Virus record (IMG/VR): IMGVR_UViG_3300033144_000281
Coordinates: 1 to 25,920 of that record
Reading direction: 5' to 3' (one strand)
Origin: a virus
Length of the DNA: 25,920 nt
Made by a program: the position numbers and the translations under genes. A model generated the notes under the pieces. The model was not told the origin of the DNA. It saw nothing but the letters and a program-made list of their open reading frames with translations, and ran no database searches. How positions within the stretch are numbered: the stretch's first letter is position 1; each line of letters starts with the position of its first letter. This document shows positions 1 through 23,064 of the stretch, one piece after another.

Positions 1-3000
1 CTTAGGTGATTTTTTATCATTTTCTTGTGCTAAAGTTATTAAAGAGTTTTTAAGAGCTAAAGCAGCTTTACCTTGTATACCTAAACCAGCTAATAAAGAA
101 TCAGCCATACCATTGGCTATTCTACCTGTCTTGTTATTTTCTTCTTCTTCTTCCTCTTCTCCAAAAGCATCAGCAAATAAAGCATTTTGCATAGCGTTAA
201 ATATTAAGTTTTGAGCAACACCATAAAAAGCTATAGTGCCTACATTTTTCTTCCAATCACCTCTGCCATTAATTAAATCTTGAGAAGATCTTTTTATAAT
301 ACGAGCATACTGCATTGGTGTATTAGCAAAAGCTAATATAACACGTCCAGCTCCACTAGCTTGTTGTTGTGATATTTTACTTGGATTACTTGACTGCTGA
401 TTTTTTTCTGCAATAGCATAAAAATCTTCAAAAGCTTGTTTCTCAGCAAGATCTTGTGGCATACCTTGTTTAACATACATGTCCAATTGATTTCTATAAT
501 AACCAGCTCCACCTGTTGCAATAGCGAAACTATCAGCAAATCTAGTTAATACAAAACCTTTATTTAATAAATAACTTAAAGCAGCTTTTGGTTTATCTTG
601 ACTTTCAGCCACAGCATCTGCTATTTCTGATTCACTTACGTTAATTTTAAGACCATTACGTCTTTCAACTAGATAAGGCGAGTTCATTAATGTTTTAAAA
701 TCAGTCCAATATTGTTTTTGATTAGCAAAAGCTTTAGCAGAGTTTATTAAACTATTGTTTCCAACACCAATAAAGTTAACTGCAGAAAGAGTCTGTAAGA
801 CAGCTGATCTAGTGTTTAAGAACATAATAGCACCAACAGAGTTATTAAGCCAGTCTAATACATTATTAACAACTCTAGAACCACCTATAGGACGGTTAGA
901 TCCTGACTTCATTCTACGTAATTGATCACGTAATGCTTCTACGTATTTAGGACCATAAGCAGCTTCTAATTTATTCATATTCTTTTCAGAGAATATAATA
1001 TCTACATTTTCCTGCCACTCTTGTAAATACTCTGTTCTATTAACTTTTGTTATACCGTTTAATACATCTGTAGTTATAGTTCCTGCTAACCAGTCTTTGC
1101 TTGGAGCAGGATATTCTTTACCTTTTTGTATTTTCATTAACTCATCAGCAAGAGTATTCATTTCAGCGTTTTTATCTACAAAATCATTTAATGCTTTTAA
1201 ATCAGTTTTAGATAAACCAGGAACTTCCATACCTTGTCTAGTCCAAACAGCAACTCTTGCGGCTTGCGAATGCGTAAATCCACCATAACCCATTTCTTTG
1301 CTTAAGCTTTTAGGTAATGTTTTTAAATTACCTTTTAACTTTTTAAAGTCTGCAGCGGCTTGTATTTTAGCTCTTGTTGTAGCAATTTCAGCTCTATCAT
1401 ATGGATCTAATAAATTTTTCTTATAAAAATCTAATTGAGCATCACCAACTTTACCTTTACCTAATGTTTTATATAATAAACCTAAAAAGTCTTCAGCTGA
1501 AGGCGTGGTAAAGAAACTAAATCTACCTTTTTTCTTACCTACTGTTTGAGCTTTTGCTTTTGAATATTCTTTAAATGATTCAATACCTGTAGAACTTTCT
1601 AATATATCATTAAATATTTTATCAAAATTCTTTTTCTTACTTGCTTTAGCTATTTGAACATCAGATTTTACATCGATCTGGTCTAATACTTCTTTAACAG
1701 CTGTAACGTTTTTAACAGCATCATCAGCAAAATAAAAATCATTATAACCTTCTGCGGCTTTACTAGCAATCCATCTACCTTTAGCAGCAGGTGTTCCATC
1801 TGCTAAACCTGTAATGTTACTTAAAGGTAAGTTTAAACCTATACCATCTAAAAATGTTTTTATTGCTGGTGCTGAATTTTGAGGTCTAGCCGTTAAAACA
1901 AAGATATCTTTACTACCAAACTTATCTTGACGTTTTAAAGCAAGATCTGCTAGTGGTCCTTTTGCTGTACCTGCAGCAACTTTTTCAAAATTACTAAAAT
2001 CAAAAGTAGCACCTTGTGATTCTAGTTCTCCAGCAGTCCTAGCAAATTCAGCAGCTGATATTTCTTTTGAACTACCGTCAGGCATTTCAACTATAACTTT
2101 TTCTTTAGTTCTAGCAAGTGTATCATCAAAATCAAAAACGCTGATTCCTTTTGCAGGTGTATCTAATGATCTTCCTAACTCAGCTGCTTTATCATAATTT
2201 TTTAAAACATCTATTTGCCTTTGAATAGTCATTTCTGGATTTACCTTGCCTCCAAATGTTTTAGTATTTACTTTACCAGAAGCTAATTCATCTGCAGCTG
2301 TTTTTTCATAAGCTTTTATTCTTTTGGCTGCTTCTTTGCCATCTAAATCATTATTAATTTGTTCAGAAATTAAACCTTCTTGCGCGTGTTTAATATTTGG
2401 GTTTTTCTTACTTTGTTTCGCTATATTACCAACGTTATAAATATCAGCAACAGGTTTACCATCGAAAGTTACACTATTAGGATCAATACCACCATTAACA
2501 TTATTAACTTTATCGTTAAAATATCTGCCCCAAATAGATTTAGCTTTAGACATATCTCCTTCTTTAGCAGCTTTATCAATAGAAGATTCAATGTCTTCTG
2601 GTATTGTTTCGCCAAAATTAAAAGGTTCACCATATTGACCACTAGTATCTGATAATTTATTATTTTCAGCATGCGACAATCCTATCATAAAATAGTTATT
2701 TTTTAAATAACCCATTAAATCTGGTACGGTATTATTTTGAATTGCTTGCATCATTAGTAAACCAGCTTTGTTTTGTGGTAAAGGATGTTCTTTTTCTCCT
2801 TTAAAGTTGGCTTCTACATAACTATTAGATTCACCTCTTGGTATAGCTGCTTGTCTTACAAAATGACCTGAATTACCAGAAGCTGAATCAAATATAGCGC
2901 TTACAACAGATATAGTTTCTGGATAAGCTTGAACCATATCAGAAAGACCTTGTAATATTATTTCTAAACCTTCATAGTTTTGTTTAACTCTTTCTTGGTA

Positions 3001-6000
3001 TTTTTTACTACCATAATCAATTTTTACTCTTTTTCCGTTTACTGTTCTAAAAAAAGCTTTACTACCTATAGCAACTTTAACAGCTTCTATTTGTGCTTTT
3101 GAAAAATCACCTTGATTTAAAAGAGCTTGCTCTAGTATTAATACTCTATCTTTACCAGTCATAAAATGACCTCTTCCAAATTTATCAGATCTTGAAGCAA
3201 AATTATTAGAGTTTATTAAATTAGCAATAGGTACAAATTTAGGTAAAATGTTTTTTATTGTTTCTTGAAAAATAGCTACATCTTGAGGGTTTTTATTACT
3301 TAAAACTCTTTTACCTTCTCTTCTAAGTATTTCGTCTCTTTTTTTCTTAGAAAACTTAACACCAGTACCAACTCTGTCAGCCGCTTCTGGAAAAGCTGTT
3401 TCAAACATTTTATTTCTAAAAGATAATCCAGCTAAACCTTTTATTGTTTGAGCTTCAGCAGATCTATATATAGGTTTAGTATATATAGGTTTAGTAGCAG
3501 TTAAGTCGCCTAATAAAGCTTTATAATCAGCAACTGTTTTACTAGGATCTAGCTTCCATTTACCTTTACCATCTTTAGTATATAAAGCATTTAATATATT
3601 GTTAGGTATAAAAGTAGATTTACCTTTTGAATCATAAGCATCAGGTAGATTTTTAAAATCCTGCTGAGCATTATTGTTAAGGTATTGTTTTAAGTTTACT
3701 AAACCTTTTAAATCTTTCTTTTGTATGTTTTGTTTTTTGTCTGTAAAAACTTTAGGATTAATACCAAAAGCTTTTCCTAATGTTTTACCTAAAGCAGGAC
3801 CTATATTTCTAGTACCAGCCATGTTTGCTACAGGTGTAGTTTTAAGATCTGTTTGTATAGCTGTTTCAATAGCTGGAGCAACATCAGTTCCTAAATTTTC
3901 TGCTAACACAGAACTATATACCGCATCACCTTTAGGACTTCTTTTTCTTTTAGGTGCTTGTGTATCTGTTTCTGTTTCTGTAGTTGTATCAGCAATAACT
4001 CCTTTTGCTTCTGTTACATCTGTTTCAAAAACATCTTTAGTACCTGCTTCACCTTTCTTAAATACATTACCAATTTTATTAGACAATTGAGAATTAATCC
4101 AACCACTTAAACTATTGTTTTGTTCAGGATTAAAGTTTCTAATATGAGGTATTAACTCTGTAACAGTTGCTTGTACAAAATCATCTTTACTAAATCCAGG
4201 TGGTTGTTGATTTGGTGGTGGTATTTTGCTTTCAATTAAACCTTGAAGAGTATTATTACCAAATAAATCTCCTATTGCTTGATCTGCTTTACCAGCATCC
4301 CACTCAGCCTTTGTAACAGTATAGTTACCAGATTCATCTTTTGCACCAGCAGCATTATCAACTTCTTCTTGTTTCTTTTTAGATGTTTTAACAGTACCTA
4401 GGTCAACTTCATCAAGAGTTTGCGTATCTAGTTCAACTTCGGCTTTAGCTAATGTTTGTTGTGATAGACCTTTACCACTCATGACATCTTTGTTAAAACC
4501 TTTTAAAAAGTCTAAAACTTGATCACCATCTTTGAAACTTTGTTTCCAACCTATAGTCTCTAAAAAGTTATTTAAAAAAGTTTTTAGTTTACCAGGTTGA
4601 GCTACAGTAATTCCACCAGAGGTTAAAGCGTCACTTGTAACAGCCATAACTTCTTCATAAAAAGTAGCTTCATTTATTTTACCAGCATTTAAATCAGCTT
4701 CATAATCTTTTAATAATGACTGAGTTTCAGCATTTACTTTTATATCAGGATTACTATCAAGACTATTTTTTAAATCTTTACCCATTTGGGCTAATTTTGC
4801 TGGATCCATCTTAGCTGCAAAAGCATGTAGTATTTCATGTTTATCTGCAGGTAAAACACCATCGGCTTCACTTGAAGCATTGTTTATAATAACTTGTTGA
4901 GTACCATCTGGTAAAGTAGCTATTAAACCGTAGCCTTGATCTTTAGCATCTAGTACTTCTCCAGCTTCATTTGTTGCTACATCTAATTGTATACCTTGTT
5001 CTTTTAACGTTTCAAAAGCTCCAATAATATCTTCTGTTGTATCAAATCTAGTAATACCTACATCGCCTAACTGTTCAGCAACAACTTCAGCGCCTTCCTG
5101 TATTCTAGCTTTAGGTGAAACTAAATTACCTCCACCAACTATTTGACCTTCTGCATCTCTTGTAACGTACGTTTCTAATATTTTATTTTTTTCTCCAGTT
5201 AGGTTTTGTTTTTTATTTTGTAAATCATCTAATAACTTTTCTTTACCAACCTCTATTCCTTTATCATTTTTAACAGCATCTATTTGCTGATCTATTTGAA
5301 AAGTTTGTTGTTCAATTTTACCTAACTGGTTTATTTCATCTCTAGACATGTCGCTATATCTATTCATAGCCGTCTGCATGATGTTTTGTATTTTAGCTGT
5401 ATTTTCAGCAATGTCATTTTGAAGCAGTTCTACTGTCTTCTTAGACATTTTAGGATTTTGTTGTATGCTGTTAATTATAGATTTATTTTTATCCTGTAAA
5501 CCTTTTATATTACTAGCATCTCCAGGTGTTTGTGTAGCGTTTATATAAGGAGCAAACAAACCAGGAGCTTTAAAACCATTGGCCATCATAAGTCCTGAAA
5601 AGAAATTATCTTTCCAGCCGTCAAATATATTAACATCTTTGCCTAAAACGTATCTGTCGTATAAATTACCAGCAGCTTCTGCAAAAACTTCTTCAGCACC
5701 TTCTGTTGCTAAATCACCAACATAACCATAACTACTAGTTAAAAACTTTTTACCGAACTCTTTGGTAAAACCAGGTTTAACACCTAAACCTTTAAAAGCT
5801 TTAGCTCTATTGATCATTGGTAGTGCAATTAATCTGCTACCAGCAAATTCAGCACCCATACTAACCATAGCACCACCCCACATTTGCAAAGCATTATAGT
5901 GTATTTTTTCTGGCTTTGACTCTCGCCATTGTCTTAGTTGATCTTGATAAAAAGCTTCTTCTTTATCTTTTTCTTCTTGTGTTGCGTCTTCTGGTAATTC

Positions 6001-8007
6001 TTTTTTCTTTATTTTTTTACCTCTTTCTTCCCAATCAGCAAGTGCTTTTTCATTTTGCTTCATTTCAGATCTATACTGGTTAAATCTGCTACCACCAGCT
6101 TGAGCAGTTACAGCATAAACACCATAACCACCAGTACCAACCATCACAGCCATTTGTGGAGCTATTGCTCCTGCTGTTGCGAATAAATACCTGCCCCAAT
6201 CAGCTCCAGTTTCAAGATCATCAATAGACATGCTTTCTGCAATATCAGACATTAATTCTTCTTGATATGCATCTATTTTAGTGTTTACATCTTCTCTTTT
6301 TTCTTTCCAGCCGTTAACGATATATTTACCAGCTAATTGCCACATAGGATTAAAAGCCTGAAAGTCTACACCTGTAGCTTCTTCTATAGTATTAGGTAGG
6401 TTAGCAACTTCAAAAGCTAATGTTTCTATACCTTGAGCCATGTCTATGGCAGAGTTTTCTGCGTTGTTTATTAAAATAGGTATTAAACTGTAGTTTCTTT
6501 CTAACTTACCAATATAAGCTGATGCATCTTCTTTCTCTTCAATAGAAGCATCAAACTCTTTATTTTTTTCTTTTAATAAATCAAAAATTTGATTTCTTTG
6601 TTTTTGTATGTTTTTAAGAGCTTTATTAGCATTGGCTACTTGCTCAGGTGTTTGATACTCTGCTTCTGTTATAGCTTTATATGACTCTGATAAAGTATCT
6701 AAAGCAACTTTACCTTTTGTAATAAAATCACCTATTTGTTTTTGCTTAGTATTTAATTTTACTGTTTTATCTTTTTGATACTGTTCCATTTGAACCTGAA
6801 GTTCACCTCTAGACCAAACATCTTTAGCGTCCATCCAACTAAATTGATTTGGTAAAGCGCCTATGCTACCTGCTAGCCAACTACCTAATTTTTTAGCACT
6901 AAAATCACTAGGAATACTATCGATAAAATTAGTCATTTTTCTTTGCTCTAATTTATCTTCAATTTCATCTTGCTTATTAGCAATCATTTTTTCCTTTATA
7001 GCTTCTTGTACTTTTGGATCTTCTAAATTTACATCAGCAACTGGTACTCTTTGTTCACTAGCTATTTCTGCTATAGCAGCATTTTTAGCTTCAACCCAAT
7101 CAGGATTAGGTATTTTTTTACCAGTTTTTTCTTTTATTTTTCTAGTAGAATATATAGGTTTACCACCTTCGCTACCAACTCTATAAGTTTCTTCTTTTTC
7201 AATAGTTTCATCTATTTCTGAATTATCATAAAAAGAAGTAGCTTTTTCGTTAGACTCTAATATTTCTTTATCTGTAAGCTTTACTTTTTCATTATACATT
7301 TTCTCCACAGCAGCAAATTTAGGATCTGTTTTTTCAGCATCAGCTGTTATTTGTCCTGCTTCTGTTTCAAGAGAACCAACTAAATTTTTATCAGCAGATT
7401 CAATAGCTTTATTAGCTTTACTATATTTGTTTAAATCTACATTATTATGTTTAAATATAGCTGGAATAGTTATTTTAGCATCTTCACTAATAGAACCAGC
7501 CTCTATCCAGTCTTTATCACCTTTTTTTCTAGCGTAATAACCTGGCCCATCTGGTGTAAAACTATATTTATATTCGTAACCACCTTTTGTATAAGTTTCA
7601 TTTGGCTTAGCAACTTGAGTTAAAGCTGTATAAGCAGCTTCTTGTTCTTGTCTTTGAATCTCAGGTTCTAGTTTTGAGTTTAATTCACTAAGAGTTAAAC
7701 CGGTCAAACCTGTAGGATCTTGAGCAACATTGCTTAATCTTTCAGCTTTTTGAAATGAAGATAAACTAAAGTTTGTGCCACTGAATGGAGAATAACCATC
7801 TTCCAAGTCGGATCCTGTATTGTCGTTTGACTCCGAGCTCGGATCCTGTGTCTGGGAGTCGTTTTGCTTTACCTCAACGTCTTCTTTTACTTCTTCAACA
7901 TTTTCATCAACAGGGTTGTTTTTTTTGAACTCAACAACTAACTTGTAGATTTCTTTTTGAGGTAATCCTTGATCTATTAAAGACCTAGTATATTCAGATA
8001 CTGTCAT
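1..8007 (-). CDS. Giant virion protein with embedded zincin-like and HAD-like domains (C-terminus off the window)
   Basis: I read this frame codon by codon from the ATG at 8007 to base 1 and found no stop, giving at least 2669 residues. The start follows the stop of the upstream gene directly (TAAATG), suggesting coupled translation. Layout: acidic Asp/Ser/Gln-rich linker at about 30-75; lysine/glutamate-rich helical stretch to about 590; Gly/Ala-rich hydrophobic patch at about 608-636; zincin-like domain at about 1005-1130 with HEILH at 1057-1061; low-complexity Thr/Glu/Lys linker at about 1155-1300; an EHPLP motif near 1740; HAD-like domain at about 1955-2110; and a helical C-terminal region with SVGAIMFLNTRSAVLQTLSA at 2390-2409 and a poly-Glu run at about 2616-2621. 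That C-terminal region resembles very large structural proteins I recall from uncultured marine phages. Position after small coiled-coil proteins suggests an internal or ejected virion protein. No DxDGD RNA-polymerase motif was seen. Function as a whole is inferred. Confidence 0.8.
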   Translation of the reverse strand, partial: MTVSEYTRSLIDQGLPQKEIYKLVVEFKKNNPVDENVEEVKEDVEVKQNDSQTQDPSSESNDNTGSDLEDGYSPFSGTNFSLSSFQKAERLSNVAQDPTGLTGLTLSELNSKLEPEIQRQEQEAAYTALTQVAKPNETYTKGGYEYKYSFTPDGPGYYARKKGDKDWIEAGSISEDAKITIPAIFKHNNVDLNKYSKANKAIESADKNLVGSLETEAGQITADAEKTDPKFAAVEKMYNEKVKLTDKEILESNEKATSFYDNSEIDETIEKEETYRVGSEGGKPIYSTRKIKEKTGKKIPNPDWVEAKNAAIAEIASEQRVPVADVNLEDPKVQEAIKEKMIANKQDEIEDKLEQRKMTNFIDSIPSDFSAKKLGSWLAGSIGALPNQFSWMDAKDVWSRGELQVQMEQYQKDKTVKLNTKQKQIGDFITKGKVALDTLSESYKAITEAEYQTPEQVANANKALKNIQKQRNQIFDLLKEKNKEFDASIEEKEDASAYIGKLERNYSLIPILINNAENSAIDMAQGIETLAFEVANLPNTIEEATGVDFQAFNPMWQLAGKYIVNGWKEKREDVNTKIDAYQEELMSDIAESMSIDDLETGADWGRYLFATAGAIAPQMAVMVGTGGYGVYAVTAQAGGSRFNQYRSEMKQNEKALADWEERGKKIKKKELPEDATQEEKDKEEAFYQDQLRQWRESKPEKIHYNALQMWGGAMVSMGAEFAGSRLIALPMINRAKAFKGLGVKPGFTKEFGKKFLTSSYGYVGDLATEGAEEVFAEAAGNLYDRYVLGKDVNIFDGWKDNFFSGLMMANGFKAPGLFAPYINATQTPGDASNIKGLQDKNKSIINSIQQNPKMSKKTVELLQNDIAENTAKIQNIMQTAMNRYSDMSRDEINQLGKIEQQTFQIDQQIDAVKNDKGIEVGKEKLLDDLQNKKQNLTGEKNKILETYVTRDAEGQIVGGGNLVSPKARIQEGAEVVAEQLGDVGITRFDTTEDIIGAFETLKEQGIQLDVATNEAGEVLDAKDQGYGLIATLPDGTQQVIINNASSEADGVLPADKHEILHAFAAKMDPAKLAQMGKDLKNSLDSNPDIKVNAETQSLLKDYEADLNAGKINEATFYEEVMAVTSDALTSGGITVAQPGKLKTFLNNFLETIGWKQSFKDGDQVLDFLKGFNKDVMSGKGLSQQTLAKAEVELDTQTLDEVDLGTVKTSKKKQEEVDNAAGAKDESGNYTVTKAEWDAGKADQAIGDLFGNNTLQGLIESKIPPPNQQPPGFSKDDFVQATVTELIPHIRNFNPEQNNSLSGWINSQLSNKIGNVFKKGEAGTKDVFETDVTEAKGVIADTTTETETDTQAPKRKRSPKGDAVYSSVLAENLGTDVAPAIETAIQTDLKTTPVANMAGTRNIGPALGKTLGKAFGINPKVFTDKKQNIQKKDLKGLVNLKQYLNNNAQQDFKNLPDAYDSKGKSTFIPNNILNALYTKDGKGKWKLDPSKTVADYKALLGDLTATKPIYTKPIYRSAEAQTIKGLAGLSFRNKMFETAFPEAADRVGTGVKFSKKKRDEILRREGKRVLSNKNPQDVAIFQETIKNILPKFVPIANLINSNNFASRSDKFGRGHFMTGKDRVLILEQALLNQGDFSKAQIEAVKVAIGSKAFFRTVNGKRVKIDYGSKKYQERVKQNYEGLEIILQGLSDMVQAYPETISVVSAIFDSASGNSGHFVRQAAIPRGESNSYVEANFKGEKEHPLPQNKAGLLMMQAIQNNTVPDLMGYLKNNYFMIGLSHAENNKLSDTSGQYGEPFNFGETIPEDIESSIDKAAKEGDMSKAKSIWGRYFNDKVNNVNGGIDPNSVTFDGKPVADIYNVGNIAKQSKKNPNIKHAQEGLISEQINNDLDGKEAAKRIKAYEKTAADELASGKVNTKTFGGKVNPEMTIQRQIDVLKNYDKAAELGRSLDTPAKGISVFDFDDTLARTKEKVIVEMPDGSSKEISAAEFARTAGELESQGATFDFSNFEKVAAGTAKGPLADLALKRQDKFGSKDIFVLTARPQNSAPAIKTFLDGIGLNLPLSNITGLADGTPAAKGRWIASKAAEGYNDFYFADDAVKNVTAVKEVLDQIDVKSDVQIAKASKKKNFDKIFNDILESSTGIESFKEYSKAKAQTVGKKKGRFSFFTTPSAEDFLGLLYKTLGKGKVGDAQLDFYKKNLLDPYDRAEIATTRAKIQAAADFKKLKGNLKTLPKSLSKEMGYGGFTHSQAARVAVWTRQGMEVPGLSKTDLKALNDFVDKNAEMNTLADELMKIQKGKEYPAPSKDWLAGTITTDVLNGITKVNRTEYLQEWQENVDIIFSEKNMNKLEAAYGPKYVEALRDQLRRMKSGSNRPIGGSRVVNNVLDWLNNSVGAIMFLNTRSAVLQTLSAVNFIGVGNNSLINSAKAFANQKQYWTDFKTLMNSPYLVERRNGLKINVSESEIADAVAESQDKPKAALSYLLNKGFVLTRFADSFAIATGGAGYYRNQLDMYVKQGMPQDLAEKQAFEDFYAIAEKNQQSSNPSKISQQQASGAGRVILAFANTPMQYARIIKRSSQDLINGRGDWKKNVGTIAFYGVAQNLIFNAMQNALFADAFGEEEEEEENNKTGRIANGMADSLLAGLGIQGKAALALKNSLITLAQENDKKSPK
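1678..2145 (-). other. HAD-superfamily phosphatase-like domain inside the giant protein
   Basis: Residues about 1955-2110 carry all four HAD motifs in order. Motif I is VFDFDDTLA, with D1959 as nucleophile and D1961 as general acid. Motif II is FVLTARP, with T2039. Motif III is a lysine in TPAAKGRW (K2076), or K2083. Motif IV is FYFADD, with D2095/D2096 for magnesium. No key residue is missing, so the domain is predicted to be catalytically competent. The substrate cannot be read from sequence; family members act on nucleotides, nucleic acid ends, sugars or phosphoproteins. Confidence 0.8.
3465..3496. repeat. 15-base in-frame tandem duplication in the giant gene
   Basis: A 15-base unit (tatataggtttagta) occurs at 3467-3481 and again at 3482-3496, with two further matching bases on the left. 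It encodes PIYTK twice in a linker region of the giant protein, keeps the frame and disrupts nothing. Confidence 0.9.
4618..4995 (-). other. Zincin-like (gluzincin-type) metalloprotease domain inside the giant protein
   Basis: Residues about 1005-1130 of the giant protein. A beta-type strand (TQQVIINNASSEAD, 1036-1049) leads into KHEILHAF, where H1057, E1058 and H1061 form the HExxH zinc-binding and catalytic motif. A Glu pair follows in YEEVMAVTSDAL (E1118/E1119), about 57 residues later, a suitable third ligand. The order of strand, HExxH helix and later Glu helix is typical of zincin domains found in large phage polyvalent proteins. Motifs are seen directly; enzyme activity is inferred. 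A chance HExxH in a helical protein is the alternative, but the surrounding pattern argues against it. Confidence 0.6.
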
Positions 8008-9108
8008 TTAACTTAATTTATTATCTTGTAAAAATTTATCTGCTTTAGCTTTTTTAGCTTCTTCTAAATCAAACACAGCTGCGTCTTCTTCAACTGTAGG
8101 TAATTTGTTTGTAGTAAATTGGTTTAAATAATTATTCATAAAATAATTTGTATAATTATTTTCAAATTGTATTTTTTTATCCTGAGACAAAGGTAAATCT
8201 TTTTCATAAGACCATGCTAAACTACCTGCATTGGCATTTTGCATCATTTGATCATCTTCTTCAACACTTGAACCTTTAGCTATAAAAACATTCCAAGCAG
8301 CTATAACTTCTTGTTCTTGTTGCATTAAACCTGCTACTTCAGCATTTATAAAAGGTTTAGCTTTTCTTTTAATTTTATCTAAATCAAATTTTAATATGTT
8401 TCTGCCTTTACCCATGCCAATGTCTATAATTTCATAATCATAACTACCATCAGAGTTTTTTAGTACAAACTCATCAGATATAGAAGCGTTAGGCGTTAAA
8501 TTACCTTCTTGATCAGCAGATCCTTCTGCTAAAACACCAACTTCAGTTAAAAGTCTCAGCATGTCCTTATTAATATCAGGTGTAGCAGCTATTAAGTCTG
8601 TATTAGCGTCTAATAAAGCTTTTAATGTGTTACTGTTTATTTGTAAAGGTTTTTCAAACATTGGTCCTTCAAAAACTAATTGTTGAGAACCATCATCTAT
8701 TAAAGTTAAATAAACATTATATCCTTCTGTTTTAGAAAACCCAGGTTTATTTGTCATTATACAATTAGCAACCATAAAAGAATAATCGTTGTTAACATCA
8801 TAATACTGCTCTTCAGTAACAGATAATTGATCAACAACAGATTTTATAAAATCTAAAGATTTTTGTGGAGCATTCTTAAGTCTCTGTAATTGTTTATGTT
8901 CATAATCACAGTTTTCACTGATACATTTACCTGAATCTATAGCTGTTTTTAATTTAGCATATAATTTTCCAGTTTCTTTATAAGCATTATCTAGTATGCC
9001 AAAAGAAGTATCTATGTTGGCTGCTACATAATCTTTGTTGTATGCTAGTGCATTACTCTGATTAGTTTGTTTAATCGCAAGGTTGTATGTAATGTTTTTA
9101 TTCTCCAT
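8008..9108 (-). CDS. Conserved phage virion protein of unknown function (probable internal protein)
   Basis: 366 residues from the ATG at 9108; its stop abuts the ATG of the giant gene. I do not recognise a domain. The protein is acidic and soluble-looking, mixed alpha/beta, with no signal peptide or membrane segment. Three cysteines lie in the first third (C62, C67, C116). A GMGKGRNILKF stretch near residue 232 is glycine-rich but is not a convincing nucleotide-binding loop. The C-terminus is lysine/alanine-rich and helical. It sits four bases after the coiled-coil protein gene and directly before the giant gene, so all three are probably translated together. A role in the internal or ejected protein complex is inference from position only. 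No Shine-Dalgarno sequence precedes the start. Confidence 0.75.
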   Translation of the reverse strand: MENKNITYNLAIKQTNQSNALAYNKDYVAANIDTSFGILDNAYKETGKLYAKLKTAIDSGKCISENCDYEHKQLQRLKNAPQKSLDFIKSVVDQLSVTEEQYYDVNNDYSFMVANCIMTNKPGFSKTEGYNVYLTLIDDGSQQLVFEGPMFEKPLQINSNTLKALLDANTDLIAATPDINKDMLRLLTEVGVLAEGSADQEGNLTPNASISDEFVLKNSDGSYDYEIIDIGMGKGRNILKFDLDKIKRKAKPFINAEVAGLMQQEQEVIAAWNVFIAKGSSVEEDDQMMQNANAGSLAWSYEKDLPLSQDKKIQFENNYTNYFMNNYLNQFTTNKLPTVEEDAAVFDLEEAKKAKADKFLQDNKLS

Positions 9109-9112: not shown

Positions 9113-9778
9113 TTATATTTTACCTCCTAAGCCTCCTACTATTCCAGCCACAGATCCAATAGCTCCAGTTATTGCCCCAGTTTCATCTCTTCTTGCTTGA
9201 GCTTCTTGACCTCTTAAGGCTGCTATTTGATTAGCAACTCTATCAAGTTGAGTTGTTTCTCTAATCTCTCTTTGTTGAAACTGGAATAAATCTCCTTGTA
9301 CATCAGCTTGTTGTATTCTTTGCGCTTCAGCCATTTGCTCGCTTTGAAGTCTTTGTTCTCCAGCTGCTCTTTGTTGTTCATTTGAAACTTCTTGTCTTTC
9401 TATATCTGCAGCAATACCTTTTTTAGCTTGTAATGCAGCTTGAGCTAAAGCGGTTGCTCCACCGGCACTAGCACCAGTTGCTCTTAATGTATCTAATGTA
9501 TTAGCTAAAGCTTGATCTGTTTGTTCCATTTTAATTTCCGTAGCTTGTGTTGCTACACTTAAATTAGCAAATGGATTAGAAAGCATATTACTAAGATCAG
9601 TAACACTTGCGTATGGATTTATTATTTCTTGACGGTTATCTTCAAGCTGCTTTAATTTTCTCTCTAAAGCTCTAGCTTGTCTAGCTTTTCTTCTAGCTTC
9701 TTTTCGAGCTCTACTAGCTCCAAAAATACCACCGCCGATACTTACTGCTGCGCCAATTCCGGCTGCTACTACACTCAT
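9113..9778 (-). CDS. Gly-rich/coiled-coil internal virion protein (ejection-type)
   Basis: 221 residues. The N-terminus (1-21) is a Gly/Ala/Ile-rich hydrophobic stretch, followed by a strongly basic segment (about 22-45, RARKEARRKARQ). The centre (about 85-195) is Gln/Ala/Glu-rich with few hydrophobic breaks and should form long helices or coiled coil. The C-terminus (about 200-221) is again Gly-rich and hydrophobic (GSVAGIVGGLGGKI). Two hydrophobic ends around a helical core are typical of small internal virion proteins that help form a channel during DNA ejection, for example the role played by T7 gp14. No homology to gp14 is claimed; the assignment rests on composition and on position between tail genes and the giant protein. 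It lies 4 bases after the cupin-like gene. Confidence 0.7.
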   Translation of the reverse strand: MSVVAAGIGAAVSIGGGIFGASRARKEARRKARQARALERKLKQLEDNRQEIINPYASVTDLSNMLSNPFANLSVATQATEIKMEQTDQALANTLDTLRATGASAGGATALAQAALQAKKGIAADIERQEVSNEQQRAAGEQRLQSEQMAEAQRIQQADVQGDLFQFQQREIRETTQLDRVANQIAALRGQEAQARRDETGAITGAIGSVAGIVGGLGGKI

Positions 9779-9782: not shown

Positions 9783-10301
9783 TTAATTATTTAGTTTTAA
9801 TTGTTTTTTCATATTTTCAACACTAATATCTGGATCATTAAAATCCTTAGCTATCACATCTTCTAAAACATCTTCTGGTATTTTTTTATCTGTTGCGTGA
9901 ACAGTTATCCAAACAGTGTCTTCATGCATGTAAATTAATCTTTTTGTTCCTGGTTTTGTTATTCCATTGTAAGGTGCTTTTATTCTTTTTATACCTTCTT
10001 CTGTTAAGACAGATATATCACCTTTTTGTACAAAATAAGGATGTTCTATTTTGTGTATACCAGTAGAGACTATTTGACCTTTAGGCATAAATATTTCTCT
10101 AATATATAATCCATCAGCAAAAGTATGCTTTAGTGGATTTATTGTGTTAACAATTTCATTTCTACCAGCTTCTTTAGGATCACCATAAGATCCCGGTAAA
10201 TTTAAAAGCTGTTCTTCAAAATCTATTATTAACTCTCTAAAACGTTCTATGTGTTCTAGTTGTTCTAAAGTGTACTCTTGTTTTACTAAGGAATTACTCA
10301 T
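9783..10301 (-). CDS. Cupin-like phage protein
   Basis: 172 residues. After a helical N-terminus (about 10-35) there is a compact beta-rich core. At 79-98 it reads STGIHKIEHPYFVQKGDISV, matching the spacing of a cupin first motif with H83, E86 and H87 as possible metal ligands and a Gly turn at G94. A second motif follows at about 116-135 (KPGTKRLIYMHEDTVWITVH), with H126 and H135. Single-domain cupin-like proteins of this form are common in the structural modules of aquatic phages, but their role is unknown to me. It could be a small virion decoration or assembly protein, or a metal-dependent enzyme. It sits between the 620-aa tail gene and the coiled-coil gene and is part of the same operon. 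Confidence 0.65.
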   Translation of the reverse strand: MSNSLVKQEYTLEQLEHIERFRELIIDFEEQLLNLPGSYGDPKEAGRNEIVNTINPLKHTFADGLYIREIFMPKGQIVSTGIHKIEHPYFVQKGDISVLTEEGIKRIKAPYNGITKPGTKRLIYMHEDTVWITVHATDKKIPEDVLEDVIAKDFNDPDISVENMKKQLKLNN

Positions 10302-10311
10302 TTAATTTAAT

Positions 10312-12174
10312 TTAATATCCGTTGTTCATCACAAAATCTGATGAAACTAAAAATAATTGTTTTTCTCCTCCAACATCTGTTACATCATCTGTAGAAAAAG
10401 TAGCAGTAGTATAATAACCTTTTAAACCACTCATTGAGTCTCCAAATATAACTTCACCTGCTCTAGGTGTACTATTGTTTACGATATTAGAAACATAGTA
10501 ATTTTCTTTTCTTGAAAAACCTATTCTTTGTTTGTCGTATGCTGGGTAATCTGTACCAAACGTACTAAAATAATTAGCTCTACTAGTAACACTAGCAAAA
10601 TTTATAACTGCATCTAAAACAAAAGGAGTAGAATTATTTACAAATATAACTCTTATACCTTCAAAAGTTATAGTACTACCTACATTTACTTGTATGTTTT
10701 GGCTAACAACTAAAGCTCCAGTAACAGCATTGTAAGATGTAACTGTTGTTCCTTGTGGTATACCTCCCCCTGATATTACAACACCAGCTGGTATAACATA
10801 TGGAACACCTGTTAATGTAATTGTATTGTTTACAGACTGAGTACTCGCAAAACCTACAACTTGTGTTTGGTTAGTTACAGTAGTATTGGCTGGAACAACT
10901 ATAGCTGCACTATCAACAGAAGATCCAATTGGTATATCAATGTTAGAATATATAGTTACACTTGTTCCTGTTACAGTCTGTGCGCATGTTGCAGTCGAAG
11001 ATGTCTGTATATATTCTCCTCCATAATAACTTCTAATAAGACTTGATTCATCAACATTTGATATAGTTATTACGTTTGGTTGGTAATCTCTTCCTGTTGA
11101 ATCAGAGAATAATGATTTAAGCATCCAACCGTTACTACCTTCGTAACCTATAGTTTTAAATGTTTTAGAGTTATCTGGCGCAGCGTTAAATATAACTGTA
11201 ACTTCACTAGCTGTTTCTTCGCCATAAAAACTACCTCTATTAACAGATGTAGAATAATGCTGATATATCCCTCCGCTTTTAATAGTATATAACTTGTTTT
11301 TTAAACTAAAAACTTGTTCTGGTGTATAACTAAAAAAGCTAACCCAACCTTGTGACTGCTCATCGTATGAAACAGTTGTAAATCCTTTTTTAAGAACAGG
11401 TGAATCTATAGCTACTTGAGTTGAAACAACATATTGATCATTATGTATATCATAACCACCAATAACTCTACCGTTGTTACCTATTACATCAAGCTCGTCT
11501 CTAAAATAATCTCTCATACCTAGTGCAGATATTTCAGATATATTACCTCCACTTAGTTTTAGTATAGCATTATTATTTTTATCAGAAAAATATTTATTAT
11601 AACCATATACAGCAAAACTTTCAGGATTTTTACTTATACCGTATTCACCGCCAAAAGGTTGTATTGTTCCTATAACTAAATTACTAGAAGTAACAGCACC
11701 TCCACCTTCAGCACTATATATAGCGTCTTTATCTATTAAAGCTCTACTAACTTTATCTTCTTGAAATATAATTAAATTTGTATCTTCAGCATAAAGTTTT
11801 TGTATAGAAGCATTTGCAGGATCAGCTGTTTTTGTTATATCTTCACCAACAGAAAATACATTAGTTTGATTTATACCTGTTCTTGAGTTAAATATACCTG
11901 AATATATTAAAGAACTTAATCTGTAAGAACCACTATTATTTTCATCTACTATATAAGCTTTTACACCAAAATCAACAGTGGTATTATTATAACCACCTCT
12001 AATTCTAGATTCTTCAATATTCCAATTATTATTACCAGTTATACCTGTTACTACAGGGTAACCACCTCTATCATTGGGTATACCAAAAGAACCATTCCAT
12101 ATAGGTTCTTCGTCATTGTTAGTCTTTTTAAGAATAAAAGTATTAAAATATTTAACTTCTACTGATGCAGCCAT
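10312..12174 (-). CDS. Tail structural protein (beta-rich, probable tail hub/needle component)
   Basis: 620 residues, rich in Ser, Thr, Asn, Gly, Tyr and Val, with almost no predicted helix. The N-terminal half has repeated short strands with a blade-like rhythm (NLIIFQEDKVSRALID, AVYGYNKYFSDKNNNAILKL, QYVVSTQ, QGWVSFFSYTPEQ), suggesting a beta-propeller-like body as in tail tube and stabilisation proteins. From about 408 to 507 it carries two copies of a small beta module ending in phrases such as VVISGGGIPQGTTVTSYN, which recurs in the adjacent 1770-aa protein. The C-terminus returns to Tyr/Phe-rich strands. It follows the 1770-aa gene by 35 bases. A tail role is inferred from composition, the shared module and location. 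Alternatives are a receptor-binding or fibre-attachment protein. Confidence 0.65.
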   Translation of the reverse strand: MAASVEVKYFNTFILKKTNNDEEPIWNGSFGIPNDRGGYPVVTGITGNNNWNIEESRIRGGYNNTTVDFGVKAYIVDENNSGSYRLSSLIYSGIFNSRTGINQTNVFSVGEDITKTADPANASIQKLYAEDTNLIIFQEDKVSRALIDKDAIYSAEGGGAVTSSNLVIGTIQPFGGEYGISKNPESFAVYGYNKYFSDKNNNAILKLSGGNISEISALGMRDYFRDELDVIGNNGRVIGGYDIHNDQYVVSTQVAIDSPVLKKGFTTVSYDEQSQGWVSFFSYTPEQVFSLKNKLYTIKSGGIYQHYSTSVNRGSFYGEETASEVTVIFNAAPDNSKTFKTIGYEGSNGWMLKSLFSDSTGRDYQPNVITISNVDESSLIRSYYGGEYIQTSSTATCAQTVTGTSVTIYSNIDIPIGSSVDSAAIVVPANTTVTNQTQVVGFASTQSVNNTITLTGVPYVIPAGVVISGGGIPQGTTVTSYNAVTGALVVSQNIQVNVGSTITFEGIRVIFVNNSTPFVLDAVINFASVTSRANYFSTFGTDYPAYDKQRIGFSRKENYYVSNIVNNSTPRAGEVIFGDSMSGLKGYYTTATFSTDDVTDVGGEKQLFLVSSDFVMNNGY

Positions 12175-12209
12175 ATTTAATTATTACTTATTTTTTATAT
12201 AAATTACAC

Positions 12210-15200
12210 TTAAGGTTGATACGTAAATGTAAACGTACTTGGAGATGGTTCTATAGGTGTAGTAGTTCCGTGACCTGCTTCTAAAGTCCAGCTGAATGCG
12301 TATGGACCTCCGCCTTGTACAAAACAATCACTTCCGCATAAACCATCTTCAGGTGATCCACCACTAGCAACTATTTGAGTTAATAAACCATAAAATGGAT
12401 AAGAAGGTGGATTAAGTTGGTCAGTAAGTCTAATATTAGGACCAATCCAACCACAACTATTAGGTATAGTTGCATTGACAACTATGTTATTTCCTGAGTT
12501 ATTAGACAATAAATCAGTCCAACTCGGAAACTGACCAGCACCGTTTGCGTTAGCTATATAAGCGTAATAACCACTAGATCCATCTCCAAATAACCAGTCA
12601 CCTCCAGGGTTATTTAAAAACAATGTTATAACTCTAAATGTTTCACAAACACCTGTGTAACCACCTGGTGTACAATTACTGCTATAGCAAGCTTCTAGTT
12701 TCCATTGCTGAACTTGACTTACATTTAGTCCCATGTTTACTAAAACAGAACAATCTACAAAATCAGTAGGATCAGAAACTCTATAGTTTATAGTATAAAC
12801 ATCTGCCGGCATATTTGGATTCTGATAATCTTGATTTATTAAAGGTATTGTAGCTTGCCTAGCTGAGTTAAAACTTTGATTAGCTTGATCTAAAGCAAAA
12901 TGATCAACAGTTTGCCCATTACTATTGGTTTGAGATGTTATTTCAAAAGTTAAATCTCTATAAGAATTATTGTTTCCTGGTGCTAGAGTAGTGCTTTTCC
13001 AACCAGCTCCATTAACAGCTTTTAATAAACCTAAATCTCTTATTTCTGTAGGCTGGACACCTTGATTATCACCAACTGCTAACAAATAAGGGTAAATAGT
13101 AGGAGTAGGACAGGTATCCCATAAAACAGAGTCTAAAACATTTATAACAGTACCACTTGCTACTGTTGAATTATTATTAACTTCTAAATTAGCAGGTGCT
13201 CTTAATTGTATACCACCACCACTATTAGAAGCAGAAGATAAATAATTTATAGCTTTGTTCCAAGTACACTCTATATTTCCATTTCCAAGCGTTTGTTTAG
13301 ATACTAAATATGTACCAGAAGGTATATATAAAGTAGTGTTTGGGTTTTGATATTGATTTAAATAGGAATTAATCTCATGCCCAACTATTAAAAGCGAGTC
13401 TTCCCATGCAAAGTGCTCTGATGTTGTTGATTGAAAAACAGTGTTTACCATAGGTAAAGGATTACTAAAATCGCCAGGAATAGTAAAAGTAGTACCTGTA
13501 GCTACAGTATTTAAAGGAACACCAACTCCTTCCACAGTATCATTTACAGCTATAGAAGTAGAAGATTCACTAGCGTCGTAAACTTTTATATTATTTGTAG
13601 TACCTGGAATTAAAACTTTCATAGACGCTCCACTACCTGTTGGAATATGTGGTGCTACGTTTCCTAGTGCAGATGTAAAGCTTTGACTAAAAGGTAAACC
13701 ATTTACAACTGCAGAAAAAGTAAAAGTAAACGTTCTTAGTTCAGGATCATCACCATACCAAATAGAGTTTGTCTGTGTAAAACCTAAATCACCTATAAAT
13801 CCAGAATCTATAGTTACATTAAATTGATTAGTGTTATTTCCTGTTTCTGTAAAAGCAAAGCATGGTCCCTGATCATAAGCAGTTTGCACATCTGTTCCAT
13901 AACCATCTACAACGCTATCTAAAGATAAAGCTTCGTCTATATCTGAGTTAGGTATTTGAACACCAAAGTTATTAACTAAATAAACAGGTCCAGTTAATAT
14001 ACTAGGTTTTGTTTGCCCAAAACCAAAAGTTAAACTTTCTAAGAAAGGAGAATCATTCCATTGATTTAATCCTGCAGCACCTAATCCACCTGTATTTTCA
14101 TTTAGAATAATATCGTTTATACTTTTTACTAATCCAGTAGTAGAAGTTTCCCAGAATATGTCTAATAAACTTTCAACTGGTTCTGTTTCATAAACAGCTA
14201 AATGTTGTATACCAGGATTTGCTGCGCTATATATATTAACTAAATCACCTATAGACGCATCAACAGCTTCGCTTACTACTATTTGAGCAGGTGTTGTAAA
14301 GTTAAGAGTGTCATTTGCTCCTATATCTACAGGATTATTAAGTTCTAAAATAACGTTAGGTGTAGCACTTGTTTTATTTAATACTATTGTACCTGCTGGT
14401 ATTGTAGGCGTACCACTACCTGTTGTTACCATCATTCCTACAGTGATATTACCTATTAAACCACCACCTGGCGCTACTGTTATTTCTGTACCTGAAGCTG
14501 CACCAGCCATAACTACACCTTGTGGACCTTGTGATGTCCCAGTAAAACTAACTAAAGTTAAATCACTTGGAAAACCAGGACCTTGAACTATATCTCCCGC
14601 TACTATAGTACCAGTTGTTCCACTAACATTATTTAGCCTTATAGTACTTGATGAACCACCTATTGATACTATACCACTTACAGCAGAAAAGTTAACATTA
14701 GATAATTGACCTATTTTATTAGCAGTGTTTATTCTTGCTATATAAGGATTTGAATCTAATGAATAAAATTGAGGAAAAAAGTTAGGTTGAGGTGGAGCTT
14801 GTGGATCGTAATCAAATAAATCTCTTACAGTTGAAACTGTTGAAGCAAAATCAGAAGTTCTGCCTGGGTAATACTGCTCGTTACTTAAACCTAAGTTTGT
14901 AGATCCTACAGAAACACTTGTTGCAGAGTTTTGAACTCTACCATAAAGTCTAACTGATGATCTAAATTGATCTTGTTGTGGACCAACTTCTACTAAATCT
15001 CTTGGTACTTTATTTATATTATCACTTATTAAAACAGTGTGTGATGTTTCGCCAACTTCTAATGTTTGATCACTAGGGTATGACGCCATTATACCAGGTA
15101 AATACACATTGTAGTAATCTTGCTCTGTTTGCTTTACAACTACTTTAAAACTATACCAACCTAATGGATTATAGTTTGCACTAGTTGGATCACCATTGTA

Positions 15201-17522
15201 AACTCCAGGCAAAGCTAATTGAGCATCTTTTTGTTCACCTATAACGTTATTAAATAAAACTTTTATAGAGTTTCCAGGCCAACTATCATTATCTATGTTT
15301 TCATCATTATAAGGTGAATAAGCAGTATCACCTTTAAAGCTTGCTCCATTTGGAAGCGTTATGCTTGTTTTATTATTTGATAAAATAGTACCTGACTGTC
15401 TACCATATCTATCAGATAAAACTATTCCAATTTGATAGTTTCTATTTGTTTTTACACTAGAGTTTGGATACTCTATTTTACTAGTTGTTTTTTGTATATC
15501 ACTACCAGGAACTAATAATACTATTTGTAAATTAGCTATTATAGCTGTCGTTGGAGTGTCTATTGTAATTGTTTGATTGTTTACGTTTGTTACTAAAGTA
15601 CCTTCTGGAACTCCATCACATATAACTATCATACCAACAAAAATTGTATTTTTTAAATTAGTTAAAGTTATTTGCGTAGATCCAGCTGCAATAGGTCCAA
15701 CAGCGTCTCCTTCTGCTTCTAATATATTAAAATCTGATTTAGTTGTAATAGCTGTTTGATAATCTATAAAATCAGGTGCAGTGTGCTTGTTTAAGAAATT
15801 ACCATATATAACTCTGTTTCCAGAAACTTCTTGAGCCAAAGCTCTTACTGGTACTTTATCGTAAACTCTTATTAAATCTTTTTCAGGTAATGTTTTAAAA
15901 GGTTTTTGAGACTGATAATCATATGTAAAATATTCAGGTTCTCCTATTGTTAATTCTACATTATCAGCTAAAGAAACTTGTGAACTTAAAGTTATTGTAC
16001 CAGCAGTACTAGGATTTACATTTGGATTATCAGGTTGATAACTATCTACTGTCACATCTGTGGTTATACCAAAGCCAGTCACATAACTACCTACCTGTAT
16101 ACCTCCTTTTACGTTGTCTACAACTACAGTATTGCTATTTGTAGTAGCTCCTTTAACATTACAATTAGCTGATTGATTAAATATTTCTTGCTCTTCTATT
16201 GTATCAATAACTTTTACAGTTGTTTGATCAGATTCTCTATACAATATATCAACAGCGTCTAATAGAAGTTTGTCTTTTAATTCATAGTTTTTAAAAGGTA
16301 ATGGTATTCTTAATTGTATTTTATCAACTTTATTTTCAACAAAAGAAACTATAGTACTTCTGTAAGATTCTGATTGATCGTCTAATTCAGGCATTCCTCT
16401 TGCATCGTCTTTTACATACATGAAATAACCATCTTGTCTAGGTATAAAAGCAGACTGTGTAAATGTAGAGAATAAAGAATATTCATCATCTACAAACTTG
16501 AATCTATATGCAAACCTTACAAACTTATCTTCTAAATAAGTATCATCACCTGCAAAATCTTTTTCATAATATTTATTATAGTTAAAAACTATCTCTGTGC
16601 CAGAAGCTAATGTTGTAGGTATAGTTGCACCTAATATATTAACTGTCCATAAAGCTGGATTATTACCAGCTGGTGCAGCATAAACTACAGTGTTAACATA
16701 TGCTGATGTTATTGGAATTATATCACCTGAAGCGTTTATATATGATATATTTGCACCAACATCATAAGGATCAGGTGTCTGAGCTTGAGCTATATATCCT
16801 TTTAAATTTTTAACCACAATACTAGTTGCTCCTGATCCAGCTTGAGCATTTAGTTTTGCACTACCACCGTTAGGATAAAACTTACTAGTAACATCCTTCA
16901 TAGTTGTTTCATATTGAGTTGTAGCTGCTGTAGATTCTTTGCTTTCAGCATATAACTCTATTGCGTTATGAGGATTATATTTAGCTACAGATATTTGGTC
17001 TTCTGTTGTGTAGTAAGTTGGATTTAAAATGTTTGTTGGATTAGCTAAATCTACATTTATTTTTCTAGGTTGATTTCTATTATCTGTCCAAAATAATAAA
17101 TTTTCAACTATATTAACGCCGTATATAGGATGTGTTTGTGAAAAATTTAAAAAAGGACCTTCAACTAGTGTAGTTAAATCTCCAGAGGAACTATTATATC
17201 TTAATACAAAGTTTTTCTTATTCTTGTTGTACGTAAGTTGTGTTGGCTTAGGATCTAAATAATTTGTAAAAAATAAATACATATTACTGTTAGAATCGTC
17301 TTCAACATGTCCTATACAATATAAGTCATTAACATTTGTGTGTGTTGCTACATTAGAAACTAAAGTATTACCTAAAACATTTTCTAAAGATCCTACGCTT
17401 TCACCTTCAGATTTACTAACTTGTACATTTAAAGCATTTCTGTATTCATTGTTAGCAATAATACGAGCATCCAAGTCTTTATTCATCTTGGATTTTATAA
17501 AAGTATTTTTAACTTTTGCCAT
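12210..17522 (-). CDS. Very large tail protein (probable tail hub with inserted beta modules)
   Basis: 1770 residues in one uninterrupted frame. The first roughly 400 residues have the rhythm of a tail hub or stabilisation protein: DARIIANNEYRNALNVQVSK near the N-terminus, then strand repeats such as NLLFWTDNRNQPRKINVD. Small beta modules with a G-x-x-V-x-G-x-G-(I/V)-P-x-x-T-x-V pattern appear at about 473, 628, 973, 1026 and 1325. The middle and C-terminal parts are Ser/Thr/Asn/Gly/Pro-rich, as expected for an extended virion appendage. At least eight cysteines cluster in the last roughly 300 residues (for example EACYSSNC and GLCGSDC) against four in the first 1240. No protease or lysin motif was seen. 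Upstream connector genes place it at the tail. Tail hub is the best guess; a tail fibre or adhesin is possible for the C-terminal part. Confidence 0.7.
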   Translation of the reverse strand: MAKVKNTFIKSKMNKDLDARIIANNEYRNALNVQVSKSEGESVGSLENVLGNTLVSNVATHTNVNDLYCIGHVEDDSNSNMYLFFTNYLDPKPTQLTYNKNKKNFVLRYNSSSGDLTTLVEGPFLNFSQTHPIYGVNIVENLLFWTDNRNQPRKINVDLANPTNILNPTYYTTEDQISVAKYNPHNAIELYAESKESTAATTQYETTMKDVTSKFYPNGGSAKLNAQAGSGATSIVVKNLKGYIAQAQTPDPYDVGANISYINASGDIIPITSAYVNTVVYAAPAGNNPALWTVNILGATIPTTLASGTEIVFNYNKYYEKDFAGDDTYLEDKFVRFAYRFKFVDDEYSLFSTFTQSAFIPRQDGYFMYVKDDARGMPELDDQSESYRSTIVSFVENKVDKIQLRIPLPFKNYELKDKLLLDAVDILYRESDQTTVKVIDTIEEQEIFNQSANCNVKGATTNSNTVVVDNVKGGIQVGSYVTGFGITTDVTVDSYQPDNPNVNPSTAGTITLSSQVSLADNVELTIGEPEYFTYDYQSQKPFKTLPEKDLIRVYDKVPVRALAQEVSGNRVIYGNFLNKHTAPDFIDYQTAITTKSDFNILEAEGDAVGPIAAGSTQITLTNLKNTIFVGMIVICDGVPEGTLVTNVNNQTITIDTPTTAIIANLQIVLLVPGSDIQKTTSKIEYPNSSVKTNRNYQIGIVLSDRYGRQSGTILSNNKTSITLPNGASFKGDTAYSPYNDENIDNDSWPGNSIKVLFNNVIGEQKDAQLALPGVYNGDPTSANYNPLGWYSFKVVVKQTEQDYYNVYLPGIMASYPSDQTLEVGETSHTVLISDNINKVPRDLVEVGPQQDQFRSSVRLYGRVQNSATSVSVGSTNLGLSNEQYYPGRTSDFASTVSTVRDLFDYDPQAPPQPNFFPQFYSLDSNPYIARINTANKIGQLSNVNFSAVSGIVSIGGSSSTIRLNNVSGTTGTIVAGDIVQGPGFPSDLTLVSFTGTSQGPQGVVMAGAASGTEITVAPGGGLIGNITVGMMVTTGSGTPTIPAGTIVLNKTSATPNVILELNNPVDIGANDTLNFTTPAQIVVSEAVDASIGDLVNIYSAANPGIQHLAVYETEPVESLLDIFWETSTTGLVKSINDIILNENTGGLGAAGLNQWNDSPFLESLTFGFGQTKPSILTGPVYLVNNFGVQIPNSDIDEALSLDSVVDGYGTDVQTAYDQGPCFAFTETGNNTNQFNVTIDSGFIGDLGFTQTNSIWYGDDPELRTFTFTFSAVVNGLPFSQSFTSALGNVAPHIPTGSGASMKVLIPGTTNNIKVYDASESSTSIAVNDTVEGVGVPLNTVATGTTFTIPGDFSNPLPMVNTVFQSTTSEHFAWEDSLLIVGHEINSYLNQYQNPNTTLYIPSGTYLVSKQTLGNGNIECTWNKAINYLSSASNSGGGIQLRAPANLEVNNNSTVASGTVINVLDSVLWDTCPTPTIYPYLLAVGDNQGVQPTEIRDLGLLKAVNGAGWKSTTLAPGNNNSYRDLTFEITSQTNSNGQTVDHFALDQANQSFNSARQATIPLINQDYQNPNMPADVYTINYRVSDPTDFVDCSVLVNMGLNVSQVQQWKLEACYSSNCTPGGYTGVCETFRVITLFLNNPGGDWLFGDGSSGYYAYIANANGAGQFPSWTDLLSNNSGNNIVVNATIPNSCGWIGPNIRLTDQLNPPSYPFYGLLTQIVASGGSPEDGLCGSDCFVQGGGPYAFSWTLEAGHGTTTPIEPSPSTFTFTYQP

Positions 17523-17528
17523 TAAATT

Positions 17529-18755: not shown

Positions 18756-18761
18756 TTGTTA

Positions 18762-19523: not shown

Positions 19524-19539
19524 TATTTTATTTTTTAAT

Positions 19540-19577
19540 ATACTAAAAAGGCGGACGAATCCGCCTTATATTAGTAT
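19540..19577 (-). terminator. Rho-independent terminator with UUCG tetraloop
   Basis: Read on the minus strand, an 8-bp perfect stem AAGGCGGA/TCCGCCTT (19548-19567) encloses the loop TTCG and runs straight into TTTTT. A further 7-bp A/T stem (19571-19577 with 19540-19546) can form outside it. This is the strongest terminator signal in the window. It lies about 20 bases after the repaired end of the small virion protein gene and just before the 253-aa connector gene. Confidence 0.85.
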
Positions 19578-19586
19578 CACTTGTTT

Positions 19587-20307: not shown

Positions 20308-20331
20308 AATATAATATAATTAAATAGTTAA
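20302..20331 (-). repeat. 30-base leader repeat, copy A (small virion protein gene)
   Basis: Bases 20302-20331 are identical to 23029-23058. On the minus strand the unit starts TTAACTATTTAATTATATTA and ends in ATGTCA, so it covers 24 bases of leader plus the Met and Ser codons. It lies directly downstream of the capsid-gene hairpin. It may be a promoter or translation-enhancing leader; which one is not decidable here. Confidence 0.75.
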
Positions 20332-20335
20332 TAAT

Positions 20336-20364
20336 AATTACCCCGCCCGAAGACGGGGATAATT
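20336..20364 (-). terminator. UUCG-loop hairpin after the major capsid gene
   Basis: On the minus strand CCCCGTC and GGCGGGG (20341-20358) form a 7-bp G/C stem, with one G-U pair, around TTCG. Five A/T pairs can extend it to 20336-20364 with one bulged base. The downstream tract is T-rich but interrupted by A, so termination may be partial, or the hairpin may protect the 3' end of the abundant capsid mRNA. It starts 15 bases after the capsid stop codon. Confidence 0.7.
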
Positions 20365-20378
20365 ATAAATTAGGAATA

Positions 20379-21872: not shown

Positions 21873-21888
21873 AATTTGTTAATTTTAA

Positions 21889-22583: not shown

Positions 22584-22626
22584 TATGAAATCAATTTCTT
22601 CTAAATCTAAATGTGGTTTAGATTTT

Positions 22627-23058: not shown

Positions 23059-23064
23059 ATATTT

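Follow-up and report, generated by a model that had tools for sequence, protein, structure and literature searches.

Phages such as T4 are known to use PNKP genes of their own to reverse host tRNA damage once infection is under way, and free-standing PNKP proteins are well known. T4 Pnkp (PseT) is itself a small free protein in which the kinase precedes the phosphatase, and the bacterial Pnkp system works in the cell as a heterohexamer that includes an RNA ligase and Hen1. Zincin-bearing polyvalent phage proteins have also been described: according to the main text of a survey, these proteins of phages and conjugative elements combine a zincin-like metallopeptidase with exchangeable enzymatic modules and are proposed to be delivered with DNA, and no HAD phosphatase or PNKP module was seen in that main text (Iyer et al., 2017, PMC5512222). 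In podoviruses, the ejection proteins end the structural module in a small-middle-large order, and the large one has a variable enzymatic part, such as the transglycosylase of T7 gp16 (PMC8954989). Here we describe a giant phage protein that contains a PNKP-like HAD phosphatase and, in some relatives, a kinase nested within the phosphatase. Both arrangements appear to be new within the literature searched.

The window, the whole stretch of DNA analyzed, comprises 25,920 bases of a phage record, with 32% G+C and no tRNA found. Its main genes all lie on the minus strand, in the order terminase end, portal, scaffold-like pieces, capsid, tail genes, a 172-aa short-tail-fibre-like protein, a 221-aa protein, a 366-aa protein, and the giant. 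The features are listed below, with residue numbers referring to the giant.

1..8007, minus strand: giant protein, 2669 aa within the window (from the ORF listing), its C-terminus cut by the window edge
1..1644, minus strand: constant C-terminal core, residues 2122-2669 (cut), following the HAD domain or its replacements
1645..2151, minus strand: HAD phosphatase domain, residues 1953-2121, PNKP-3′-phosphatase-like (from motifs, invariance, AlphaFold2, structural neighbours, and PHROG_415)
1720..1737, minus strand: HAD motif IV, FYFADD, residues 2091-2096, with D2095 and D2096
1759-1761, minus strand: K2083, likewise invariant
1780..1782, minus strand: HAD motif III lysine, K2076, assigned by spacing
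1882..1899, minus strand: HAD motif II, VLTARP, residues 2037-2042, with T2039 and R2041 aligned with T4 Pnkp S211 and R213
2068..2083, minus strand: approximate cap insertion site, residues about 1975-1980, holding only the short loop MPDGSSK in the window
2113..2136, minus strand: HAD motif I, FDFDDTLA, residues 1958-1965, with nucleophile D1959 and acid/base D1961
4651..4839, minus strand: zincin-type metallopeptidase motif HEILH (1057-1061) plus invariant E1119
8008..9108, minus strand: 366-aa protein adjoining the giant, putatively in the position of the second ejection protein (from gene order in Elemovirus, Panino, and phi38:1)
9113..9778, minus strand: 221-aa protein whose start is hydrophobic and rich in Gly/Ala, a putative gp14/gp7-like ejection protein (from position and size)
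9783..25920, minus strand: virion module with terminase end, portal, scaffold-like ORFs, capsid, and tail genes (from PHROG matches and tblastn)

The initial annotation placed a complete HAD phosphatase domain at window positions 1678-2145. These coordinates are correct and correspond to giant residues 2110-1955 (ORF 8007..1), with the minus strand coding; plus-strand coding of the interval was ruled out by stops throughout. Motifs I, II, III, and IV are present in order in the window copy with intact catalytic residues, and AlphaFold2 predicted a HAD fold (pLDDT 82), Rossmann-like with a flap/cap insertion following motif I, not a non-HAD fold. Solved HAD phosphatases topped the list of structural matches, with Z up to 12.3. 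Since nine residues (D1959, D1961, T1963, T2039, R2041, K2076, K2083, D2095, and D2096) are identical in 81/81 aligned homologues, the motifs are not due to chance. All motifs are kept in 242 of 251 distinct homologues, all from uncultured phage contigs, and 7 others are merely truncated, either at a contig end or by a break in the frame. Loss of the catalytic aspartates, which had been raised as a concern, was thus confined to 2 decayed copies. Motifs II and IV are separated by exactly 54 residues in 241/241 sequences. Across 16 full-length giants, conservation peaks in the HAD domain, whose mean pairwise identity of 0.67 compares with 0.56-0.60 in the C-terminal core and 0.10 over the first 1000 residues, figures biased toward HAD conservation because the set was gathered with HAD as the query. 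The region encodes a HAD phosphatase with an intact active site. The decayed copies (L284 and L236) have lost motifs or retain only the C-terminal part of the domain, and in both the giant protein is retained.

We detected the HAD domain in several hundred contigs of one public collection, yet no isolate in the searched phage collection matches by sequence: neither the HAD domain alone nor the full-length giant (for which no match was meaningful) found a counterpart among 50,697 phage records. Searching a genome collection yielded only 11 contigs binned in metagenome-assembled genomes, at least some of which are phage-like. Wherever seen, the domain is fused to the giant, as the initial annotation had wondered, with no standalone version among closed ORFs; four short HAD ORFs (883-1572 aa) look like split giants. 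Closed-ORF homologues of the giant are mostly 2700-3300 aa, with a median of about 2900 aa. BFVD contained more distant HAD matches of 200-283 aa, and a PDB sequence search with the domain gave no relevant match. Pfam searches with the giant and with the HAD domain returned only chance matches below threshold, such as Sigma70_r2 and DUF2608.

PNKP 3′-phosphatases are the closest structural and profile relatives of the domain. Its nearest structural neighbour was T4 Pnkp (Z 12.3, rmsd 2.5, 117 residues aligned), followed by bacterial Pnkp1 (Z 12.2), in which a HAD phosphatase is likewise joined to a polynucleotide kinase. Generic HAD phosphatases scored 1-2 Z lower (phosphoserine phosphatase, 11.6; Lipin/Nir2-type, near 10-10.8). 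Since a Z of about 12 is just 1-2 above these, the substrate cannot be read from the fold by itself. In a family-level profile search, as proposed in the initial annotation, PHROG_415 (polynucleotide kinase) was matched by 52/59 HAD members, with a best value of 4.6e-9. No Pfam HAD model rose above its cutoff, and Pfam by itself would have overlooked the domain. Comparison with eight T4-family Pnkps using hhalign gave a probability of only 63% (E 7e-5), in an alignment that paired motif I, T4 S211/R213 with T2039/R2041, and the DD of motif IV. R2041, two residues past the motif II Thr, is invariant, and K2076 precedes the first motif IV Asp by 19 residues, matching the spacing of K258 and D277 in T4 Pnkp. 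T4 R176 falls where the profile alignment is gapped, and no Arg is apparent there.

The likeness to T4 Pnkp covers the HAD fold, the DxDxT motif, the S/T-x-R motif, the motif III Lys 19 residues before the motif IV DD, and, in relatives of the window phage, a kinase partner. The differences are that the HAD domain here lies within a giant, that the kinase, where present, is inserted in the phosphatase cap, that sequence identity is about 15%, and that T4 R176 has no clear counterpart. Together, the profile and structural resemblances suggest that the substrate is a polynucleotide.

All variation in the size of the HAD domain is confined to one cap site, where relatives carry a 45-aa helical insert, an ART-like domain, or a P-loop kinase nested in the phosphatase. 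Motifs I and II are 78-80 residues apart in 205 distinct sequences and 86 apart in 3. The spacing increases to 123-126 in the 13 sequences with the helical insert, to 215 in 1 sequence with a different, weakly ART-like insert, and to 263-281 in the 19 sequences with the nested kinase. The kinase, about 190 aa, sits between two strands after motif I. We first saw it in two loci (L091 and L093), and a search with the kinase as query recovered about twenty more phage contigs. The window copy lacks a kinase, and in two cases (L197 and L147/L198), a kinase lies elsewhere in the same giant as the HAD domain.

The nesting of the kinase within the phosphatase is shown by computation. A composite model of the HAD domain and nested kinase (pLDDT 88.7) had full-length T4 Pnkp as its best Foldseek PDB match (9.5e-8). 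The kinase matched AAA_33 and zeta toxin in Pfam, PHROG_505 polynucleotide kinase in 14/14 cases, the C. thermocellum Pnkp kinase in PDB (5.8e-4), and the T4-family Pnkp kinase profile (probability 97.9, E 3.9e-13). Its Walker A, N-Q-D, D-G-T, and RN..R lid motifs are invariant or almost so. By these sequence comparisons the nested kinase appears closest to polynucleotide kinases. O-phosphoseryl-tRNA kinase and zeta toxin are likewise near, and VIA-align placed the kinase half equally close to O-phosphoseryl-tRNA kinase and C. thermocellum Pnkp; for this reason, the substrate of the nested kinase is also a prediction. One relative (L275:8990-12235) has another domain at the kinase's cap site that weakly resembles the ADP-ribosyltransferases of polyvalent proteins.

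We searched with the core alone and examined what precedes it. The 80 loci recovered comprised 45 with the HAD domain, 2 in which HAD contains the nested kinase, 7 where only the kinase occupies this place, 24 with neither, and 2 that were too short for a call, shares that are not population frequencies because the core query started from a kinase-only member. Since HAD, kinase, or neither can stand before the constant core, the core seems to follow an exchangeable slot. The kinase-like domain occupies the slot without HAD in L187, L200, L205-L208, and L211. HAD-less giants also include two with ART-like sequence in the slot before the core (L219:9038-10090 and L257:9038-10090) and three with nuclease-like VEVK/WEIKK motifs in the slot (L242, L272, and L282). 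An ART identity for the L275 insert and the L219/L257 slot was unsupported beyond a weak ART-PolyVal profile match, seen in one relative only (E 0.14). In L147/L198, L183, and L195, the core is a separate ORF of 523-575 aa directly after the HAD ORF, due to either a frame error or a natural split. A 4686-aa giant (L126:10577-13213) has about 880 additional residues between HAD and core.

The giant contains two unrelated enzyme-type modules, the HAD domain and a zincin motif, to which a kinase is added in relatives. HExxH occurs in 244/263 giant ORFs compared to 0.3% of shuffled ORFs, and E1058, H1061, and E1119 are invariant in 16 full-length homologues. As no Pfam peptidase or LPD profile passed on the giant, this assignment is by the HExxH pattern. 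The initial annotation had envisaged a phosphatase and a protease in one ejected protein; the zincin motif supports the pairing, and ejection is suggested by gene position. The giant resembles polyvalent proteins, as presented in the main text of their survey (PMC5512222), in being a giant multidomain chain with a zincin-like motif and exchangeable enzymatic modules, and differs from them in that no Pfam LPD domain match was obtained.

A model on which our confidence is evenly poised is that the HAD domain is an active PNKP-type 3′-phosphatase that serves as an enzymatic module of a giant polyvalent protein, probably ejected, and heals nucleic-acid ends. The giant would enter the host together with the phage DNA and may be cleaved by its own metalloprotease, which could release its domains. 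The HAD domain would then remove 3′-phosphate (or 2′,3′-cyclic phosphate) from ends made by host nucleases, and a ligase, often phage-encoded, or a host enzyme would seal the trimmed ends. Relatives with the nested kinase may also phosphorylate 5′-OH ends; with the kinase domain added inside the cap, they therefore hold both halves of an end-healing enzyme. That some relatives have a matching kinase inside the phosphatase suggests that nucleic-acid breaks are repaired as infection begins. If true, a PNKP module in an injected protein joins both of the themes with which we began, as repair would arrive with the genome. The phage could benefit from having repair in place ahead of its own gene expression, when nucleases may cut incoming DNA or host tRNAs. 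The nested kinase would be another way of joining the PNKP halves, and the interchangeable slot before the constant core would be a defined site in which to seek other early effectors. Only tentatively do we extend this to a general proposal, that the giant of this abundant, uncultured marine phage lineage brings exchangeable end-healing enzymes (3′-phosphatase, kinase, or a new nested bifunctional enzyme) for repair before phage genes are expressed.

Other functions can be envisaged for the domain. It could act on small phosphorylated molecules instead of polynucleotide ends, for example nucleotides, a second messenger in defence, or some other metabolite. Many small-molecule and lipid HAD phosphatases fall within 1-2 Z of Pnkp, most homologues, including the window copy, lack a kinase, and inserts differ among relatives at the C1 cap site, by which HAD enzymes select their substrates. 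Since the specific profile matches are to polynucleotide kinase families and the partner domain nested in the cap is itself closest to polynucleotide kinases, we consider a small-molecule substrate unlikely, though worth keeping in view. It is improbable that the domain works as a protein phosphatase on phosphorylated host proteins involved in signalling or transcription: the HAD protein phosphatases and effectors Eya2, Lem4, and MDP-1 do appear in the structural lists, but they rank under Pnkp, and no profile links the domain to protein phosphatases. Among the targets guessed in the initial annotation, "modified DNA ends" came closest, with the PNKP-type evidence suggesting DNA or RNA ends, while free nucleotides and protein signals were disfavored. 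Could the domain look catalytic and now be chiefly a structural module of the giant? Such a role would fit its constant fusion and the same C-terminal core that always follows it, the two decayed copies, which indicate that the giant can exist without catalysis, and the sizeable fraction of core-bearing giants without HAD. However, a scaffold would have no need for nine invariant active-site residues in 81 homologues or for a fixed spacing between motifs II and IV, and an unrelated kinase can take the HAD domain's slot. We regard a chiefly structural role as very improbable.

Delivery by the virion is suggested by gene order. The head-tail genes of the window are homologous to and collinear with those of Elemovirus elemoF, Maribacter phage Panino, and MW202828 (tblastn). 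The last gene of the module encodes a giant that is annotated as structural in the Flavobacterium phage elemoF (gp18) and Cellulophaga phi38:1 (gp101), and our giant takes the same syntenic place, after a head-tail module that is homologous in elemoF and matches in gene order in phi38:1, which was compared by gene order alone. The HAD, core, and kinase profiles of the giant found no match in elemoF, Panino, or MW202828; since homology to the structural giants of isolated phages was not seen, its virion location is assigned by position. To this extent, the early impression that the chain otherwise looks structural holds, with gene order as its sole basis. The 221-aa protein, the 366-aa protein, and the giant also repeat the small-middle-large order of T7 gp14/gp15/gp16 and P22 gp7/gp20/gp16 (PMC8954989), but the giant is over twice the size of its counterparts, has other enzymes, and shows no sequence homology to them, nor was there a PHROG ejection-protein (gp16-like) match in the window. 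As sequence homology does not back the podovirus-like order, we infer, rather than observe, ejection. Alternatively, the giant may be produced inside infected cells without entering the virion, serving for instance in assembly or late repair. In favor of this, no homology to a proteome-verified virion protein was found. We find it rather unlikely, because the giant is last in a virion operon collinear with those of phages whose last giant is annotated as structural, and because it is preceded by 221- and 366-aa proteins, as in the podovirus ejection-protein order. In all, the giant is probably an internal virion protein of the ejection type, entering the host along with phage DNA.

We also searched for ligases as possible sealing partners. 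Among genomes of at least 56 kb, the ATP-dependent ligase PF01068 was present in 23/28 HAD-bearing phages compared to 1/3 HAD-less relatives, and among genomes of 46-54 kb, in 7/20 compared to 0/6. The association is suggestive, not significant, in these length-matched strata (one-sided p about 0.12 each, with relatedness not removed). A candidate sealing partner is thus often present in HAD-bearing phages. Unlike the bacterial Pnkp system with its own RNA ligase, none of 25 phage genomes contained RNA ligase PF09414. PF09511 was also found in 0/25, in a search whose control matched nowhere, and NAD-dependent ligase was found in 0/15 genomes.

Several minor features of these genomes were also evident. 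In the related Elemovirus elemoF, a small HAD family hydrolase (KNV11_gp48; L084:7908-8261, elemoF gp48) has its own gene, apart from the giant. In the window, the major capsid gene (20379-21872, minus strand) is split over three frames, and a 41-bp tandem duplication, with copies at 21091 and 21132, explains one of the frame shifts. Since the gene is whole in related phages, these breaks are likely assembly or sequencing errors. The scaffold-like gene (22083-23034, minus strand) consists of two ORFs (135 and 166 aa) in the window and a single ORF in Elemovirus and Panino, perhaps reflecting another frame error.
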